Shown here one piece after another: positions 16,486 to 39,725 of a stretch of 39,725 nucleotides of DNA. The position numbers were made by a program, and so were the translations under genes. This DNA is from Nitrospirota bacterium. Its GTDB lineage: Bacteria; Nitrospirota; Thermodesulfovibrionia; Thermodesulfovibrionales; SM23-35. Below the pieces are notes generated by a model. That model worked only from the letters and a program-made list of their open reading frames with translations, searched no databases and was not told the origin of the DNA. Position 1 is the first letter of the stretch. Every line of letters starts with the position of its first letter. The stretch lies in the NCBI GenBank assembly GCA_040754395.1, contig JBFMCL010000026.1, forward strand, positions 1 to 39,725, given 5' to 3'.

Positions 16486-17004
16486 TATGGCGACTAAACT
16501 CGGGCAGCTGCTGGTAACGGCCAATATTGTGTCGGAGGATCAGCTTCGGGAGGCGATCAGTCTTCAGAAGCGTCAGGGCGGGCGGCTTGGAACGAACCTG
16601 GTGAAGCTGGGGTATGTGACCGAGGAGAAGCTTGTCGGTTTTCTGAGCAAGCAGTGGGGAGTGCCTGCAATAAACCTGTCTGACTACAAGATTGATGCCT
16701 CGATACTGAAGCTGATACCGGTAGAGATAGCGAGGAAATATCTGATCATCCCGGTGGCGAGGGTAGGTGCGACGCTGACGATCGCGATGGCAGACCCGTC
16801 GAACGTATTTGTGATAGACGATGTGAAGTTTATGACGGGATATAATGTTGAGGTAGTGGTGGCGAGCGAATCGTCGATCGTGAGTGCGATGTCGACGTAT
16901 TACAGGGGAGGCGGGGAAGCGCTGATCGCGACAAAGAAAGCGGCTGCGACGAAGACGATAGCGGCGAAGGACTATACGCTCGGTGATGAGGATCTGCAGG
17001 AAGA
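16486..17004 (+). repeat. Near-identical 519-bp tract, copy 1 (5' part of first pilB)
   Basis: Bases 16486-17004 match 18376-18894 at a constant offset of 1890 with one difference, a silent g/a at 16576/18466 in the CGTCAG/CGTCAA codons. The match begins at the base before the ATG and ends after codon 172, where both DNA and protein diverge at once. The sharp edges and silent-site identity point to recent gene conversion or duplication of the N-terminal module alone. Confidence 0.95.
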
Positions 17005-18295
17005 GACGTTCGGTGCAATGGAAGAAACGTATACAGTCGATGTCGAGGAATTCGACAGAGTTGTCGGTGAAGCCCTCGACGACGTTGAAATCGTAGAGGA
17101 AAGAGAAGACGAACTGGTAAGAGAAGTAGAGCGTCCGATCGTGAAGCTCGTCAACGGCATCCTGATAAATGCGATTAAAGAGAGGGCGAGCGATGTCCAT
17201 ATCGAGCCGTATGAAGCTTCTCTGAGAGTCAGGCAGCGTGTTGATGGTGTAATGTATACCGTCATGAATCTTCCTGTACAGATAAAGAATGCCGTCACCT
17301 CAAGGATGAAGATCATGGCAAATCTCGATATTGCCGAGAGAAGGCTGCCGCAGGATGGCAGGATTAAGCTCAAACTCGGCAAGAAGAGAGAGATCGATTT
17401 CCGTGTCTCGACAGTACCATGCCTGTTCGGGGAGAGGACTGTGCTGAGACTCCTCGATAAGTCAAACCTCCAGGTAGACCTCACCAAGCTCGGTTTTGAG
17501 GAGGAGAATCTCAAGGAGTTCATGGAAGCGCTCGAAAAGCCTTACGGGATGTTGCTGGTGACCGGGCCGACAGGCAGCGGCAAGACGACAACACTTTATT
17601 CAGCACTCAATTACCTGAACAAGATTGGTGTCAATATCTCGACCGCAGAGGACCCGGTCGAGTATAACTTTTTAGGGATAAACCAGGTGCATGTGAAGGA
17701 AGACATCGGGCTTACCTTTGCTGCCGCGCTGCGTTCTTTTTTGAGACAGGATCCTGATATCATCATGGTCGGGGAGATCCGTGACTTCGAAACCGCTGAA
17801 ATTGCCGTAAAAGCAGCCCTTACCGGCCATCTCGTGTTGAGCACCCTGCATACCAATGATGCCCCCAGCACCATCAGCAGGCTGCTGAACATGGGGATTG
17901 AGCCGTTCCTGGTGTCGGCATCTGTCATTCTCATCGCTTCCCAGAGGCTGACAAGGGTGATCTGCTCCTCCTGCAAGGAAGAGGAAAAAGTTCCGATTCC
18001 CGGACTTGTGCAGCTCGGATTCTCGGAAGAGGAAGTGGAGACCGTCAAATGTTACAGGGGCAAGGGGTGTTCACAGTGCAATAACAGCGGGTACAGGGGC
18101 AGAATAGCCCTCTATGAGGTCATGATGCTCAAAGAAGAGCTCAAGGAGATGGTACTCGAAGGGGCATCCGCAGACGAATTGAAGAAGACCGCTGTCAGAC
18201 TCGGCATGAGGACCCTGAGGATGAGCGGTCTTTCCAAAATAAAAAGCGGTATCACCACGGTTGAAGAGATTGTAAGGGTGACATTCGGAGATTAG
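16487..18295 (+). CDS. pilB: Type IV pilus extension ATPase PilB, copy 1
   Basis: 602 residues. Cytoplasmic hexameric motor that powers pilus assembly. An N-terminal MshEN/GSPII_E-like domain (about 1-150) is followed by a variable acidic linker (165-215), the PAS-like N2 domain (216-325) and the ATPase: Walker A GPTGSGKTT (360-368), Asp box TAEDPVEY (386-393), Walker B IIMVGEIRD (425-433), His box STLHTND (452-458). The zinc tetracysteine is C493, C496, C528, C531. No Shine-Dalgarno is seen before the ATG. It heads a pilB-pilB-pilT-pilC-pilS-pilR run; the first 172 codons are almost identical to those of the next gene. Confidence 0.95.
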   Translation: MATKLGQLLVTANIVSEDQLREAISLQKRQGGRLGTNLVKLGYVTEEKLVGFLSKQWGVPAINLSDYKIDASILKLIPVEIARKYLIIPVARVGATLTIAMADPSNVFVIDDVKFMTGYNVEVVVASESSIVSAMSTYYRGGGEALIATKKAAATKTIAAKDYTLGDEDLQEETFGAMEETYTVDVEEFDRVVGEALDDVEIVEEREDELVREVERPIVKLVNGILINAIKERASDVHIEPYEASLRVRQRVDGVMYTVMNLPVQIKNAVTSRMKIMANLDIAERRLPQDGRIKLKLGKKREIDFRVSTVPCLFGERTVLRLLDKSNLQVDLTKLGFEEENLKEFMEALEKPYGMLLVTGPTGSGKTTTLYSALNYLNKIGVNISTAEDPVEYNFLGINQVHVKEDIGLTFAAALRSFLRQDPDIIMVGEIRDFETAEIAVKAALTGHLVLSTLHTNDAPSTISRLLNMGIEPFLVSASVILIASQRLTRVICSSCKEEEKVPIPGLVQLGFSEEEVETVKCYRGKGCSQCNNSGYRGRIALYEVMMLKEELKEMVLEGASADELKKTAVRLGMRTLRMSGLSKIKSGITTVEEIVRVTFGD

Positions 18296-18375
18296 CCAAT
18301 CGGGTGTTTATCTGGAGAAACGGGTTGCATTGCGTGCAGACCTGCGGATGATAGGGGTTAATCAGGAAAAAACAG

Positions 18376-18894
18376 TATGGCGACTAAACTCGGGCAGCTG
18401 CTGGTAACGGCCAATATTGTGTCGGAGGATCAGCTTCGGGAGGCGATCAGTCTTCAGAAGCGTCAAGGCGGGCGGCTTGGAACGAACCTGGTGAAGCTGG
18501 GGTATGTGACCGAGGAGAAGCTTGTCGGTTTTCTGAGCAAGCAGTGGGGAGTGCCTGCAATAAACCTGTCTGACTACAAGATTGATGCCTCGATACTGAA
18601 GCTGATACCGGTAGAGATAGCGAGGAAATATCTGATCATCCCGGTGGCGAGGGTAGGTGCGACGCTGACGATCGCGATGGCAGACCCGTCGAACGTATTT
18701 GTGATAGACGATGTGAAGTTTATGACGGGATATAATGTTGAGGTAGTGGTGGCGAGCGAATCGTCGATCGTGAGTGCGATGTCGACGTATTACAGGGGAG
18801 GCGGGGAAGCGCTGATCGCGACAAAGAAAGCGGCTGCGACGAAGACGATAGCGGCGAAGGACTATACGCTCGGTGATGAGGATCTGCAGGAAGA
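18376..18894 (+). repeat. Near-identical 519-bp tract, copy 2 (5' part of second pilB)
   Basis: Partner of 16486-17004. Direct orientation, one mismatch. The intervening DNA holds the rest of the first pilB, so recombination between the two copies would delete 1890 bp and leave one chimeric pilB. Confidence 0.95.
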
Positions 18895-20185
18895 TGTCGC
18901 CAGCCCGATGGATGAAGCATATTCGGTCGATGTCGAGGAATTCGACAGGGTTGTCGGAGATGCCCTCGACAGTGTGGAAGCATATACCGAACATGAGGAA
19001 GCGCTGGCTCAGGAGGTTGAAGAACCGATCGTGAAACTCGTCAACGGCATCCTGATAAATGCGATAAAGACCGGGGCGAGCGATATTCACATCGAGCCTT
19101 TCGAAACTTCATTGAGGGTCAGGTACCGGGTCGACGGGGTGCTTTTCAATGCGATGAATCTGCCCCTGAAAATAAAGAACCCGATTACCTCAAGGCTCAA
19201 GATCATGTCCAAGCTCGATATTGCCGAGAGAAGGCTGCCGCAGGATGGCAGGATCAAGCTGAGGCTCGGCAAGAAAAAAGAGATTGATTTCCGTGTCTCG
19301 GTTCTGCCGTGCCTTTTCGGTGAAAAGACCGTCATGAGGATTCTGGACAAGTCAAACCTCCAGGTGGACCTCACCAAGCTCGGGTTCGAGCAGGAAGCGC
19401 TGAAAAAATTCATGGATTCGCTGAACAAGCCATACGGCATGATACTTGTGACAGGCCCTACAGGAAGCGGCAAGACGACCACCCTTTACTCTGCCCTGAA
19501 CTATCTGAACAAACCGGGTATTAATATCATGACTGCGGAGGACCCGGTTGAATATAACTTCCAGGGAATGAATCAGGTGCAGGTAAAGGAGGACATAGGC
19601 CTGACGTTCGCTTCAGCACTGAGGGCGTTTCTCAGGCAGAGCCCCGATATCATTCTGGTCGGGGAGATCCGTGACTTCGAGACAGCAGAAATAGCGGTGA
19701 AGGCAGCTCTGACCGGCCATCTCGTGCTGAGCACCCTGCATACCAATGATGCGCCCAGCAGTATCAGCAGGCTGCTGAACATGGGCATCGAGCCGTTCCT
19801 TGTCTCGGCTTCCCTGATCCTTATCGCTGCGCAGAGACTTGCGAGAAAAATATGTTCTGACTGCAGGGAGGAGGAGAAAGTTCCCCAGTCTGTACTCGTG
19901 CAGCTCGGTCTTTCAGAGGAAGAGGCGAAGACCGCAAAATGCTACAAGGGGAAAGGGTGTGCTACATGTAACGGGTCCGGGTACAAGGGAAGGATAGCCC
20001 TCTATGAGATAATGCCGGTGAGCCAGGAGATTAAAGAGATGATTCTGGAAGGGGCATCAGCAGACGAATTGAAGAAGACCGCTGTCAGACTCGGCATGAA
20101 GACCCTCCGCATGAGTGGTCTTACTAAGGTCAATGAAGGAGTCACCTCAATAGAGGAGATCGTGAGAGTCACCTTTGGAGATTAA
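18377..20185 (+). CDS. pilB: Type IV pilus extension ATPase PilB, copy 2
   Basis: 602 residues, the same length as copy 1 and the same domain order. Residues 1-172 are identical to copy 1. The acidic linker then differs almost completely, and the ATPase half is clearly homologous but diverged, with patches of near-identical DNA (for example around the codons for ELKKTAVRLGM). Walker A GPTGSGKTT, Walker B ILVGEIRD, the His box STLHTND and the cysteine pairs CSDC and CATC are intact, so both copies look active. A good Shine-Dalgarno (CAGGAA) precedes the ATG, unlike copy 1. The two may drive different pili, or one may be regulatory in mixed hexamers. Confidence 0.95.
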   Translation: MATKLGQLLVTANIVSEDQLREAISLQKRQGGRLGTNLVKLGYVTEEKLVGFLSKQWGVPAINLSDYKIDASILKLIPVEIARKYLIIPVARVGATLTIAMADPSNVFVIDDVKFMTGYNVEVVVASESSIVSAMSTYYRGGGEALIATKKAAATKTIAAKDYTLGDEDLQEDVASPMDEAYSVDVEEFDRVVGDALDSVEAYTEHEEALAQEVEEPIVKLVNGILINAIKTGASDIHIEPFETSLRVRYRVDGVLFNAMNLPLKIKNPITSRLKIMSKLDIAERRLPQDGRIKLRLGKKKEIDFRVSVLPCLFGEKTVMRILDKSNLQVDLTKLGFEQEALKKFMDSLNKPYGMILVTGPTGSGKTTTLYSALNYLNKPGINIMTAEDPVEYNFQGMNQVQVKEDIGLTFASALRAFLRQSPDIILVGEIRDFETAEIAVKAALTGHLVLSTLHTNDAPSSISRLLNMGIEPFLVSASLILIAAQRLARKICSDCREEEKVPQSVLVQLGLSEEEAKTAKCYKGKGCATCNGSGYKGRIALYEIMPVSQEIKEMILEGASADELKKTAVRLGMKTLRMSGLTKVNEGVTSIEEIVRVTFGD

Positions 20186-34472: not shown

Positions 34473-35240
34473 ATGATTGAGGCGATAATTCTCGGGATTG
34501 TCCAGGGGATTACCGAATTCCTTCCTGTAAGCAGCACGGCGCACCTGATCCTGTTCCCATGGTTTTTCAACTGGACAGGAGAGGTAGATACCCTCACCTT
34601 TGATATTGCCCTGCATGCAGGAACCCTTCTGGCGCTCATTTTATGCTTCTGGAAAGACTGGCTGGAGCTCGTCCTGCATCAGCAAAAACGGCTTGGACTG
34701 ATCCTTCTTGCGTCACTTCCAGCCGGAATTGCCGGACTGCTTCTGAATGATTTTGTCGAACACAGCCTCAGAAACCCGGTGGTAATCTGCGCCATGCTGA
34801 TTATTGTCGGTATTGTCATGCTGGTGTCTGAGAAGACTCCCAGGCGTAAGGGAATAGAGGGGATAAGTCTGGCTGATGCCCTCGCCATAGGCGCTGCGCA
34901 GGCCCTCTCGATCATTCCCGGCGTTTCCCGTTCGGGCATAACGATTTCAGCGGGGCTCTTCAGAGGGATTGAGCGGGAGGCAGCCGCCAGATTTTCTTTC
35001 CTGCTTTCGACACCGATTATCGGTGGCGCCACGCTGCTGCATCTCCAAAAAGCCCTTGAAACCAGGGAAAACTACGACTTCCAGCTCTTTGCCGCCGGAT
35101 TTGTCGTGTCATTTCTGACCGGCATTATCGCCATAAAGTTCCTGCTGCATTACCTCAGGAAGTACCCCCTGAACCTCTTCGTGTATTACAGGTTTGGGCT
35201 TTCTGCTGTTATAATAGCAGGTATATGGCTGAAAGGATAA
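34473..35240 (+). CDS. uppP: Undecaprenyl-diphosphatase UppP (BacA)
   Basis: 255 residues, seven to eight membrane segments. The two active-site motifs are present: QGITEFLPVSSTAHL (11-25) and PGVSRSGITISAGL (149-162). It removes a phosphate from undecaprenyl diphosphate to recycle the lipid carrier of cell-wall synthesis; overexpression gives bacitracin resistance in known cases. The gene starts 6 bases after rnj and overlaps ftsK by 16 bases. Confidence 0.97.
   Translation: MIEAIILGIVQGITEFLPVSSTAHLILFPWFFNWTGEVDTLTFDIALHAGTLLALILCFWKDWLELVLHQQKRLGLILLASLPAGIAGLLLNDFVEHSLRNPVVICAMLIIVGIVMLVSEKTPRRKGIEGISLADALAIGAAQALSIIPGVSRSGITISAGLFRGIEREAAARFSFLLSTPIIGGATLLHLQKALETRENYDFQLFAAGFVVSFLTGIIAIKFLLHYLRKYPLNLFVYYRFGLSAVIIAGIWLKG
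35210..35215 (+). promoter_or_regulatory. -10 element (TATAAT) inside uppP, just before ftsK
   Basis: TATAAT ends 9 bases before the ftsK ATG. A GCAGGT between the two could serve as a weak Shine-Dalgarno on the longer uppP transcript, so ftsK may have both read-through and its own short-leader transcript. No good -35. Confidence 0.4.
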
Positions 35241-37285
35241 AACGGATCAAAGAAGAGGTCCTGGGCGTAGTTTCAGTTATGGCCAGCCTTTTCCTTCTCC
35301 TGAGTCTTTTTTCACATTATCTTCGCGACCCTGTGCCCTTTTTCAGAACAACAGTCCCCCCCGAGCCGCTGCATAATCTTGGAGGGATACTCGGAGCTTA
35401 TGTATCGGGGTGGCTCATAATCGCACTGGGAGTGGCTGCTTTTATTATCCCTGTCCTGATCACTGTCTTTGGTATCAGGAAACTCCTGGGCAAAGAAGGT
35501 CACAAGGCTTCCCTTCTGGGGGGGCTTCTCTTTGTCGTCTCTTCCGCGGTGCTGCTCGCACTCCTGTCACATACCTTCCATCTCTCGATAGAGAAATACC
35601 CAGACGGCATCGGCGGCCTTACCGGCAGGGGTGTTGCATATGTCGCACAGAAACTGTTGTCGGTACCCGGGGCATACATATTTTCCCTCTCCTTTTTCCT
35701 GTCCGCGCTCATCTTAATGAGCCCTGTGTCCGTCATTTCCGTTGCCTTCGGCAAGAGGCAAAAAAAGCCCGAGAGGAAAGAACTGTTCGAAGAGAGAATC
35801 CCTGAAGAGGAGGAGATACTGATTATTGAGCCCGAACCTTTGCCGGAGCCTCCTTCGGGTGTTCAGCCCGAGACGGTGATTCCGGGTAAAACAGGGGGAT
35901 ATGAACTTCCTTCCCTGGAGTTGCTGAGCCTGTCCGACTCATCGTCTGTAAGACCGTCAAAGGATGACCTGCTGACGGATTCATCGGTTATCGAAAAAAA
36001 GCTTGAGGATTTCGGAGTTGTCGGCAAGGTTGCCTCAGTGCACCCCGGCCCGATCGTAACCATGTATGAGTTTGAACCCGCTCCGGGGGTAAAGATCAAC
36101 AGGATCGTATCCCTTTCGGATGATCTTGCCCTGGCCCTGAAGGCACAGAGCGTAAGGGTTTCGCCGATTCCCGGAAGAGCGGTGATCGGGATAGAAGTGC
36201 CGAACAAGCTGCGCGAGACAGTCTCACTGAGAGAAATCCTTTCGTCCGAAGGATTCAGGAAAAGCAGGTCGAAGCTTACCCTCAGCCTCGGAAAGGATAT
36301 CGCAGGGCTGCCGGTTGTGGCGGATCTTTCAAAAATGCCCCATCTCCTTGTTGCAGGAGCCACAGGCTCCGGCAAGAGCGTATCCATTAACTCCATGGTC
36401 ATGAGCATTCTGTACAAGTCCGCCCCTTCGGAGGTGAAGATGCTGATGGTAGACCCGAAGCTCCTCGAGCTTTCCGCGTATGAGGATATCCCGCACCTGA
36501 TCGCCCCGGTAATCACCAACCCGAAGGAGGCTGCGGAGTCGCTGAAGAAGATGGTGATCGAGATGGAGAGACGGTACCGGTTTCTTGCGGAGAGGTCTTC
36601 GAGGAACATCGAGAGCTTCAACCAGCAGGCCAAAGAGGAAGAGAAACTTCCCTATATTGTCATCATTATCGACGAACTCGCAGACCTCATGTTCACTGCG
36701 CCGAACGATGTCGAGGATTCGATCGCGCGGCTTGCGCAGATGGGGAGGGCATCAGGAATACATCTTGTCCTTGCGACGCAGAGGCCTTCCGTTGACGTAA
36801 TCACGGGAATCATTAAGGCGAATTTCCCTGCACGAATCGCGTTTCAGGTGTCTTCCAAGGTTGATTCGAGAACGATCCTTGATTCTCACGGCGCGGAACA
36901 GCTCCTCGGCAAGGGCGACATGCTCCTCATGCTGCCGGGCGCGAGGATCATACGTGTCCACGGCGCATTGATCACTGAGGATGAAACAAGGGCCGTCACA
37001 GAGTTCGTGAAAACTCAGGGCAGACCCGATTACACCATGATGGAAAGCATACAGACAATTGACCAGACTGATCAGGATAACAGGGCCGGAGAACGGGACG
37101 ATATGTATTTCAGGGCGATCGAGATTGGAGAGACTGCCGGTGAGGTCTCTATCTCGTCAATTCAGAGAAGGCTCAAGATCGGCTATAACAGGGCAGCAAG
37201 GATCATGGAACTGCTCGAAGAAGACGGGCTCGTGGGCCCCCCGAAGGCTGCCGGGAAACCAAGGGACTTTCTCGGGAGAAGATAA
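35225..37285 (+). CDS. ftsK: DNA translocase FtsK
   Basis: 686 residues, a compact FtsK/SpoIIIE. Four membrane segments (about 14-31, 58-84, 98-118, 149-175), a short acidic and proline-rich linker (180-240), the alpha domain (255-345), the RecA-like motor with Walker A AGATGSGKSV (377-386) and Walker B IIIDELADL (480-488), and a C-terminal winged-helix gamma domain (640-685, SISSIQRRLKIGYNRAARIM) that reads polar KOPS-like sites. It pumps DNA at the division septum for chromosome dimer resolution. The short linker is common outside Enterobacteria. Confidence 0.97.
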   Translation: MAERIKRIKEEVLGVVSVMASLFLLLSLFSHYLRDPVPFFRTTVPPEPLHNLGGILGAYVSGWLIIALGVAAFIIPVLITVFGIRKLLGKEGHKASLLGGLLFVVSSAVLLALLSHTFHLSIEKYPDGIGGLTGRGVAYVAQKLLSVPGAYIFSLSFFLSALILMSPVSVISVAFGKRQKKPERKELFEERIPEEEEILIIEPEPLPEPPSGVQPETVIPGKTGGYELPSLELLSLSDSSSVRPSKDDLLTDSSVIEKKLEDFGVVGKVASVHPGPIVTMYEFEPAPGVKINRIVSLSDDLALALKAQSVRVSPIPGRAVIGIEVPNKLRETVSLREILSSEGFRKSRSKLTLSLGKDIAGLPVVADLSKMPHLLVAGATGSGKSVSINSMVMSILYKSAPSEVKMLMVDPKLLELSAYEDIPHLIAPVITNPKEAAESLKKMVIEMERRYRFLAERSSRNIESFNQQAKEEEKLPYIVIIIDELADLMFTAPNDVEDSIARLAQMGRASGIHLVLATQRPSVDVITGIIKANFPARIAFQVSSKVDSRTILDSHGAEQLLGKGDMLLMLPGARIIRVHGALITEDETRAVTEFVKTQGRPDYTMMESIQTIDQTDQDNRAGERDDMYFRAIEIGETAGEVSISSIQRRLKIGYNRAARIMELLEEDGLVGPPKAAGKPRDFLGRR

Positions 37286-37302: not shown

Positions 37303-37394
37303 CCCCCCCCTATTTTTTCTGTAATGTCACTTCCGTCTTCGTCTTTTGTAAACGCGAAGATGGCTGAAATATCCAGCACAGAGCTTTTAGCCAC
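37303..37394 (-). pseudogene. Truncated vapC-like PIN toxin, N-terminal remnant
   Basis: From a GTG at 37394 the - strand reads VAKSSVLDISAIFAFTKDED followed by GSDITEKI, matching the start of a VapC PIN domain, including the first conserved aspartate (VLD). Resemblance stops near an 8-base C-run (37303-37310); the frame then runs antisense into ftsK. The remaining acidic residues of a PIN active site are missing, so it cannot be active. The start overlaps the end of the antitoxin remnant, as in intact vapBC operons. Confidence 0.7.
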
Positions 37395-37619
37395 GTTTTC
37401 TTTCCTCTTTTCTCGACTCAGGGAGTTTTTCGAACAGGTTCGCATCTTTGAATCTTCCCCTCAGCGCTTTCACAGGGTCTTGGGGAATCGGCATGACTGT
37501 TATGGTATGGTATGCCCGTCATCTATCCATTCAAGCTTTGTTTTCGCTTTGATATCATATCTCCTGCGTATAGCGGCAGGGATGGCGGTCTGCCCCCTTA
37601 CTGTCACCGTGCTTTCCAT
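37387..37619 (-). pseudogene. Frameshifted vapB-like (AbrB/SpoVT family) antitoxin
   Basis: From the ATG at 37619 (GGGAGGGAGAAAT upstream) the - strand reads MESTVTVRGQTAIPAAIRRR then YDIKAKTKLEWIDDGHTI, an AbrB-type swapped-hairpin start. It stops early because TATGG is tandemly duplicated at about 37501-37510 (+ strand). Dropping one copy restores 75 codons to the TAA at 37387, continuing TVMPIPQDPVKALRGRF and an EKLPESRKEERKRG tail. A TATAAT lies upstream of the ATG on the - strand. Confidence 0.72.
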
Positions 37620-37676: not shown

Positions 37677-37817
37677 TTAGCAGACAATCCCACCAAGAGT
37701 ATGAATTGGCAAACGCATAGCTACTTCTCCATCAATCTTCACAACAATGGTCTCGCTTTCCTTCGAAAGATACGCTCCCTGAGTGGTCACAAAGAGCGTG
37801 TTAAGAAGCTTTTTCAT
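37677..37817 (-). pseudogene. cas1: Truncated cas1 (type I-C-like), N-terminal 46 codons
   Basis: From the ATG at 37817 the - strand encodes [20 protein letters not shown], then [20 protein letters not shown] and LGGIVC followed by TAA. This matches the N-terminal beta domain of type I-C Cas1; full-length proteins (about 340 residues) continue straight on after IVC with FG. The whole catalytic alpha-helical domain is lost, so no integrase activity is possible. AAGGA lies 10 bases upstream. The break falls next to the promoter of the vapB-like gene. Confidence 0.8.
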
Positions 37818-37849
37818 ATTCCATTAATCCTTCAGAAGTATCTCATTTC

Positions 37850-37891
37850 TTGACAAGCACCATGCTTACTTGTACAATAATTTGTACAATG
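37850..37891 (+). promoter_or_regulatory. yefM-yoeB promoter with TGTACA operators
   Basis: TTGACA (37850-37855) and TACAAT (37873-37878) are 17 bases apart. TTGTACAAT occurs twice in direct orientation (37870-37878 and 37882-37890); each holds a TGTACA core, 12 bases apart, overlapping the -10. In E. coli the YefM-YoeB complex binds TGTACA-centred palindromes at its own promoter, so conditional autorepression is the expected mode here. A clean AAGGAG Shine-Dalgarno follows at 37896-37901. Confidence 0.85.
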
Positions 37892-37907
37892 TAAAAAGGA
37901 GATATCC

Positions 37908-38159
37908 ATGGCAACGATTACATATTCAGATGCCCGCACAAGGCTTGCCGCAACAATGAAAAAAGTATGCGAAAACCATGAGCCTGTGATCATCACCAGG
38001 CAGAAGGAAGAATCAGTTGTAATGCTCTCTCTTGAAGATTTCAGAGCACTCGAAGAAACTGCATATCTTCTCCGCGTGCCCAAAAACGCCCTGCGTTTGC
38101 TGGAATCCATCGCAGAGCTTGAACGCGGCGGCGGAAAGACTCGCAAACTCGCCGAGTGA
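37908..38159 (+). CDS. yefM: YefM/Phd family antitoxin
   Basis: 83 residues. The N-terminal Phd/YefM DNA-binding fold is present (ATITYSDARTRLAATMKKVC, then VIITRQKEESVVMLSLEDFR), and a C-terminal helical tail (LRLLESIAELERGGGKTRKL) would wrap the toxin. It neutralises YoeB and represses the operon. The stop overlaps the toxin GTG by 4 bases. Intact, with good promoter and ribosome site, unlike the broken vapBC and cas1 pieces to its left. Confidence 0.93.
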   Translation: MATITYSDARTRLAATMKKVCENHEPVIITRQKEESVVMLSLEDFRALEETAYLLRVPKNALRLLESIAELERGGGKTRKLAE

Positions 38160-38410
38160 AGCTCATCTTTTCCAAAAATGCCTGGGAGGATTATCTCTAC
38201 TGGCAAAAGACCGACAAGAATATGCTGAAACGCATAAACCGGTTGATCCATGAGATCATGAACGATCCGTTCACAGGTCCCGGAAAACCCGAACCGCTCA
38301 AGCACGGACTTTCCGGTTACTGGTCCCGCCGCATTAACGACGAGCACCGGATTGTGTATCGGCCTGCCGAAGATGCTATTCTTATTGCCCAACTGCGTTT
38401 TCATTACTGA
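38156..38410 (+). CDS. yoeB: YoeB family mRNA interferase toxin
   Basis: 84 residues, the same length as E. coli YoeB and alignable throughout by eye: KLIFSKNAWEDYLYWQKTDK at the start, GKPEPLKHGLSGYWSRRI in the middle, RFHY at the end. Catalytic residues E46, R65 and H83 and terminal Y84 are all present. YoeB cuts mRNA in the ribosomal A site under stress. The start is GTG overlapping the antitoxin stop, so it needs antitoxin translation. All landmarks suggest an active toxin. Confidence 0.95.
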   Translation: MKLIFSKNAWEDYLYWQKTDKNMLKRINRLIHEIMNDPFTGPGKPEPLKHGLSGYWSRRINDEHRIVYRPAEDAILIAQLRFHY

Positions 38411-38482: not shown

Positions 38483-38507
38483 GTTTCAATCCTTGTTTTC
38501 ATGGAAG
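38483..38507. repeat. Possible relic CRISPR repeat left of the array
   Basis: GTTTCAATCC at 38483-38492 equals the first ten bases of the array repeat but is followed by TTGTTTTCATGGAAG instead of the GC palindrome. It starts 71 bases before repeat 1, near one repeat-spacer period (65-67). It may be a decayed end repeat, or a single repeat of a different (Cas6-type) family that also begins GTTTCAATCC. Chance is not excluded. The rest of the gap 38411-38553 has no gene I can support. Confidence 0.35.
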
Positions 38508-38553
38508 TATCTCATAAACTGTTCAATGTGAAGAAGGTATCGCTCCTCACCGA

Positions 38554-39725
38554 GTTTCAATCCACGCCCCTGCGCGAGGGGCGACGTCAACCGTCAGCAA
38601 AACCTCCCTATGTCGTTATGTTTCAATCCACGCCCCTGCGCGAGGGGCGACGTCGGTCACCGTCACCTTCCTCCCGCCTGTGACGTTTCAATCCACGCCC
38701 CTGCGCGAGGGGCGACACCTTGCTCCACCATCGTCTCTTCTACCGTATTCTGTTTCAATCCACGCCCCTGCGCGAGGGGCGACAGGATCTTTCTGCGACG
38801 CCATAAACTCTACAATGTTTCAATCCACGCCCCTGCGCGAGGGGCGACTTTATCTCTACGCCGGGTTCAGGACGGAGGACAGGTTTCAATCCACGCCCCT
38901 GCGCGAGGGGCGACTTTAATAGACCGGGTGATTTTATCAATATGCTCCTGTTTCAATCCACGCCCCTGCGCGAGGGGCGACATCGTATAACGGCGGCTGG
39001 ACGCTTCTCAGAAAAGTTTCAATCCACGCCCCTGCGCGAGGGGCGACCGGAACCGAAAAAGGCAGTGAGCATACCAACACAGTTTCAATCCACGCCCCTG
39101 CGCGAGGGGCGACTACACCGGCATCGTGACGATCGCCGACTTCTGGCAGTTTCAATCCACGCCCCTGCGCGAGGGGCGACCCCCATCAAAGCGGCAAACG
39201 ACATTGTCGGTAGCAGTTTCAATCCACGCCCCTGCGCGAGGGGCGACACCCTATGTCGTCTTCCGTCGTGAGCGCAAGCGTGTTTCAATCCACGCCCCTG
39301 CGCGAGGGGCGACACCCTATGTCGTCTTCCGTCGTGAGCGCAAGCGTGTTTCAATCCACGCCCCTGCGCGAGGGGCGACGATGACGACCGACCAGTCAAA
39401 GACGCTCGACGTGTTTCAATCCACGCCCCTGCGCGAGGGGCGACTTTAATATCGTATTCGCTATCATTGATAATGGTGTTTCAATCCACGCCCCTGCGCG
39501 AGGGGCGACTCACTTTTACTCAGGCGGAGTGTATTTATTAGGGGTTTCAATCCACGCCCCTGCGCGAGGGGCGACTGCAGCATAAGCAGGAGCATGAGCC
39601 CTATGCATAGTTTCAATCCACGCCCCTGCGCGAGGGGCGACATGTATCGGTTTTGGTTGCTCTGCCTTGCCGAGGTTTCAATCCACGCCCCTGCGCGAGG
39701 GGCGACCAAGACCTTGGAATTAATT
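38554..39725 (-). CRISPR. Type I-C CRISPR array, at least 18 repeats, open at the right edge
   Basis: Eighteen identical 32-base repeats, + strand starting GTTTCAATCCACGCCCC and ending GCGAGGGGCGAC, begin at 38554, 38620, 38685, 38752, 38817, 38883, 38950, 39016, 39082, 39149, 39216, 39282, 39348, 39413, 39478, 39544, 39610 and 39675. The 17 complete spacers are 33-35 bases; spacers 11 (39248-39281) and 12 (39314-39347) are identical. After the last repeat 19 bases remain, either a cut spacer or leader. The repeat has a 7-bp palindrome CGCCCCT/AGGGGCG with loop GCGCG. Its reverse complement ends GTGGATTGAAAC, the type I-C 3' end, so crRNAs are read from the - strand and the leader should lie to the right. 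Confidence 0.98.

Follow-up and report, generated by a model that had tools for sequence, protein, structure and literature searches.

Why should the beginning of a cas1 gene lie at the trailer end of a type I-C CRISPR array and point in the same direction as the array? The question is raised by the right end of the window, the whole stretch of 39,725 nucleotides analysed here, which is a complete contig (C26) of its genome. The features concerned are as follows, from left to right.

35225 to 37285, plus strand: ftsK, a chromosomal gene and the left border of the relic region (PF01580, 5.6e-68)
37312 to 37393, minus strand: 5' stub of vapC (PIN toxin), about 27 codons, cut beside the ftsK stop, by alignment to G032 and G143
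37387 to 37619, minus strand: pseudogene of vapB (MazE/AbrB-type antitoxin), frameshifted by a 5-bp insertion (ACCATACCATA)
37677 to 37817, minus strand: 5' fragment of a type I-C cas1, codons 1-46 with a TAA directly after, by profile matches and alignment to the intact cas1
37850 to 37900, plus strand: yefM-yoeB promoter (TTGACA-17-TACAAT) with two TTGTACAA(T) palindromes, in the gap between the cas1 fragment and yefM
37908 to 38159, plus strand: yefM (Phd/YefM antitoxin), intact (PF02604, 7e-26)
38156 to 38410, plus strand: yoeB (Txe/YoeB toxin), intact (PF06769, 2e-37; TIGR02116, 3.7e-35)
38483 to 38519, minus strand: single CRISPR repeat of another type (GTTTATGAGATACTTCCATGAAAACAAGGATTGAAAC), which closes the I-C array at its trailer end
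38554 to 39725, minus strand: trailer half of the I-C CRISPR array, 18 repeats, with 11 more on contig C33

The resident type I-C locus

The last 42 bases of the window are the first 42 of contig C33 of the same genome, and this overlap lies in mid repeat and spacer. The joined array contains 29 identical 32-bp repeats (18 exact copies in the window and 11 on C33) separated by spacers of 33-36 nt, and every repeat reads GTCGCCCC...ATTGAAAC on the minus strand. Beyond the array on C33, a leader of approximately 185 bp is followed by cas2, cas1, cas4, a gene of the IVP-type four-helix-bundle kind (IVP), cas7, cas8c, cas5, and cas3, all on the minus strand. The initial annotation had read the array leftward, placed the leader and the cas genes on its right, and proposed to extend the sequence beyond position 39725; both the leader and an intact cas3-cas5-cas8c-cas7-(IVP)-cas4-cas1-cas2 set were found there, on the neighbouring contig. 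The resident I-C locus is complete, ordinary, and normally arranged, with all genes of type I-C (cas3-cas5-cas8c-cas7-cas4-cas1-cas2, 32-bp repeat) in the canonical order. The nearest relatives by Cas1 are Nitrospirota metagenome-assembled genomes. Since the intact locus has its leader on the right, the cas1 fragment is extra. It stands on the trailer side and on the strand of the array, as had been described, with the leader and the full cas set to its right.

The search for self-targeting spacers against the window or C33 gave short chance matches only. Two neighbouring spacers (window 39248-39281 and 39314-39347) are identical, representing a repeat-spacer duplication. The IVP-type gene of the resident operon lies between cas7 and cas4 (L003, C33, 2905-3477), and an IVP-type gene at this position recurs in many Nitrospirota and Brocadiales I-C operons. 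Elsewhere in the window (16487-20185, plus strand), two adjacent 602-codon frames look like a tandem gene duplication.

The cas1 fragment and the intact cas1

In profile searches the fragment was matched by TIGR03640 (I-C Cas1) with 3.4e-13 over residues 3-46, and by Pfam Cas1 (01867) with 3.5e-6 and 27.4 bits, above the cut-off. The Pfam profile had two matches in the whole genome, namely the fragment and the intact 343-residue Cas1 encoded on C33. The TIGR03640 match, together with the 100% protein identity to the intact Cas1c of the same genome, identifies the fragment as the N-terminus of the Cas1c family of the resident locus. The catalytic C-terminal domain of a full-length Cas1 is missing, for the 46 codons are followed by TAA. 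In its difference from a type I-C locus, the fragment is a lone 46-codon stump on the trailer side, without cas4, cas2, and leader. The stop codon of the frame arises from the junction. It had been noticed from the window that the frame ends where a conserved FG is expected, and the intact cas1 on C33 does continue with FGQ.

The DNA-level comparison suggested by the initial annotation gave 133 of 139 bases the same, ending at codon 46, and the sequences 5' of the two ATGs are unrelated. All six differences are synonymous and at third positions, for which the chance without selection is 2-6e-4, given that 24-29% of random changes are synonymous. Therefore, two working cas1 alleles, both under selection, most likely diverged before one was cut, and the truncation would be recent by comparison. 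The sites behind this divergence under selection are few. Third positions are saturated and the relatives too distant to place the changes on a branch, so that all six could lie on that of the working gene.

Flanks and origin of the fragment

The yefM gene starts 90 bp from the cas1 fragment on the opposite strand, so that the two stand head-to-head, and the promoter in the gap between them is near-consensus. YefM-YoeB has the features of a type II toxin-antitoxin pair, with overlapping PF02604 and PF06769 genes and a TGTACA-type operator, of the kind known in this family. The intact I-C operons of G166 (L182) and Brocadia pituitae (L085) have the same head-to-head cas1/yefM arrangement between their cas4 and cas1, and in the intact I-C operon of another planctomycete (L086) yefM-yoeB stands head-to-head before cas1. 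In G139, the cas1/yefM promoter persists as a relic and yefM is replaced. The promoter and the gap can be aligned across the cas1/yefM junctions of G166, L085, L086, and G139, and the gap of the window can be partly aligned to that of G173. The string GAAGTATCTCAT at 37840 was considered, together with the lone repeat, as a degenerate repeat pair; this was rejected, since the string is better accounted for by the cas1/yefM gap, in which it lies and which can be aligned to G173.

A second truncated case was found in G173 (L221), in which yefM-yoeB is intact beside a cas1 of codons 1-15 only, followed by GGAGCGTGGATTGAAAC, the 3' end of an I-C repeat. The motif GGAGCGT is present at the corresponding spot in some intact cas1 genes, e.g. 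that of L077. Because the motif is shared by intact cas1 and the I-C repeat, a microhomology deletion from cas1 to the array would explain G173, and its junction looks like the scar of such a deletion. The truncated cas1 and YefM-YoeB of L221 adjoin a type II-D Cas9 locus (Cas9d, 764 aa; G173:C106, 1425-6000) with an array and cas1.

On the left side, homology to VapBC begins within approximately 2 bp of the end of the cas1 fragment and starts with the promoter of the pair. Relatives of this VapBC were found in G032, immediately behind an I-C array, and in G143, where they follow a lone I-C repeat. Both flanks of the fragment, the yefM-yoeB side and the VapBC side, thus match neighbours of I-C loci elsewhere. 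The vapB gene is frameshifted and vapC is truncated, whereas yefM-yoeB is intact. No clear microhomology was seen at the cas1/VapBC deletion junction, in contrast to G173.

An older I-C locus at this site was probably deleted from cas1 codon 47 through to its trailer, and the toxin-antitoxin pair stayed. The sequence relations and the junctions were observed directly; which parts once stood here, and in what order they were lost, is reconstructed from them as follows. The older locus would have stood just left of (behind) the present one, with YefM-YoeB antisense just before its cas1 and VapBC beyond the trailer of its array, and the fragment would be its cas1 stump. A deletion may have fused cas1 codon 46 to the VapBC promoter and taken out what followed in cas1, together with cas2, leader, and array; a deletion from codon 46 across these parts to the trailer neighbour would yield the gene order of the window. 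A second deletion would have cut vapC beside ftsK, and the upstream cas genes of the older locus would have been lost too. The self-regulated YefM-YoeB would have survived intact, plausibly since its loss is costly.

The trailer end of the resident array adds to this history. A lone 37-nt repeat lies between yoeB and the I-C array, 34 nt from the last I-C repeat, and the array thus ends (window 38483-38553) in a repeat of another type and not in a degenerate I-C repeat. Arrays of this other repeat exist in related genomes, some with their own cas3, cas1, and cas4; the Pfam Cas1 search, with its two matches only, gave no cas1 of this type in the genome of the window. A cas4 remnant was expected right of yoeB, and none was found there. 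Since a lone repeat of another type is present in its stead, the model requires one or more further rearrangements. It looks as though arrays of different types were fused end to end, and the trailer side seems to carry traces of two or more CRISPR loci that have been lost.

The initial annotation had offered two explanations, namely a pair of I-C loci, the left of which was stripped of its cas genes, and a rearrangement that moved the array. The former is supported because the divergence is synonymous only, other genomes have the same cas1/yefM junction, and G173 provides a second truncated case; the latter is not needed because the present array is in its normal place beside its own leader and operon. 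What it had missed is that the fragment forms a block with YefM-YoeB and directly adjoins the broken VapBC, by which the likely end points of the deletion are given.

Another possibility, which we consider somewhat unlikely, is that YefM-YoeB is a travelling cassette that brought along the 5' end of a former neighbour cas1, so that a complete second I-C locus never stood here. Relatives of YefM-YoeB are indeed found at varied I-C sites (before cas1, cas4, and the IVP gene, and behind arrays in G170 and G140), partial 5' copies of neighbour genes are often present (cas4 in G035; ivp in G164, G172, G162, and G160), and in L104 a 5' cas1 stump precedes an IVP gene. However, no integrase or transposase was noticed beside YefM-YoeB, the VapBC, itself a trailer-side neighbour of I-C arrays, would be left as a coincidence, and the cas1-to-array deletion of G173 yields the same kind of block.

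The piece is short, starts exactly at the ATG, and is close in sequence to the resident gene, as would be expected if break repair had copied a short stretch of the resident cas1 start into this place. Such filler DNA is nevertheless very unlikely, for six differences that are all synonymous are unexpected in a dead copy, and the cas1/yefM junction is common to other genomes. That the 46 residues are identical to the N-terminus of the resident Cas1 could also suggest a working small protein, e.g. a Cas1 decoy. Among 38 Cas1 N-terminus matches in 176 genomes of the order, however, the same short frame did not occur and no further short cas1 frame was found inside a contig, the remaining short frames sitting at contig ends; the only other truncated copies found (G173 and L104) stop at different codons, the stop is made by the junction, and the minus strand just 5' of the fragment showed no promoter-like site. 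A working protein is therefore extremely unlikely, and the 46-codon frame most likely does nothing. To the idea that the present array was moved, with its trailer now facing a cas1 that formerly led it, we give next to no credence despite the odd trailer-side place of the piece, since the 42-bp contig overlap makes the array continuous with its own leader and complete operon on C33.

An exact search with the 5' pattern of the fragment found it absent from viral contigs, and the search of plasmids returned distant I-C cas1 genes only. The cas1 piece is a genuine but ordinary genomic relic, whose history is unusually readable, and the loss of an older I-C locus by deletion is the reading that we prefer.

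Toxin-antitoxin genes in the I-C loci of the order

By DNA similarity, approximately 26 YefM-YoeB loci were found in the order, and approximately 10 of them adjoin CRISPR arrays or I-C cas genes, compared to 0.2 expected under random placement, although these loci are not independent events. The CRISPR-linked positions vary (before cas1, before cas4, before the IVP gene, and behind arrays), and YefM-YoeB is antisense to the cas genes in 12 of 12 operon-linked cases as well as in the window.

The cas4-cas1 junction is a recurrent insertion point. It carries inserts of more than 150 bp in 26 of about 90 I-C loci (the cas4-cas1 junctions of L182-L200 and L073-L152, a few genomes being counted twice). 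The inserts encode RhuM, Bro-N, YhcG/DUF1016, Fic, DUF433 with the PIN-like DUF5615, VapBC, YefM-YoeB, IVP, and AAA (AAA_14)/DUF4143; they lie mostly on the cas strand, and neither cas4 nor cas1 is broken. In L183, L184, L185, L186, L188, and L104, a partial 5' copy of cas4, ivp, or cas1 stands before the insert and the full gene behind it, as if circles or fragments with a 5' piece had recombined in.

The association of toxin-antitoxin genes with cas loci as such is not new. Phd/YefM, MazE, Fic, RhuM-containing, and 23S-IVP genes inside cas loci were reported in 2013 (PMC3936711, Nucleic Acids Res.), and the same families as in those type I cas loci turn up here. Most pairs in that report are on the cas strand, whereas YefM-YoeB is antisense here in every linked case; it stands head-to-head with cas1, cas4, or the IVP gene and persists after the cas genes are lost.

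In CreTA the toxin is an RNA, and a crRNA-like guide together with Cascade silences it (PMC9458426, PMC12737573). The window resembles CreTA in having a toxin module beside cas genes and a solitary CRISPR-like repeat nearby; however, the pair here consists of a protein toxin and an antitoxin, and the lone repeat is of another CRISPR type. No spacer of the array matches the yefM-yoeB promoter, and the spacers and the 34-nt stretch beside the lone repeat gave short chance matches only to the flanking DNA. Identity with CreTA was rejected for the type of the repeat and for the lack of a guide match to the flanking DNA.

The puzzling geometry is settled: the resident I-C system is normal, and behind it lies the stump left by an earlier one. 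The window and G173 show the decay of I-C loci by deletions that start in cas1 and leave the linked toxin-antitoxin pair in place. The toxin-antitoxin pair that keeps recurring in antisense is what deserves following up. Its frequent place beside CRISPR loci, at varied positions and always antisense, opens to direct test a long-standing question, namely whether such pairs serve CRISPR loci or merely travel with them. It is conceivable, though in our judgement quite unlikely, that YefM-YoeB is no random passenger but, landing again and again antisense and head-to-head with cas1, cas4, or the IVP gene, controls the adaptation genes via its self-regulated promoter region and makes the cas locus hard to lose. 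If so, spacer uptake would be coupled to the toxin-antitoxin state, as a protein-based counterpart of CreTA, and the window would be a case of a guard outliving what it guarded.
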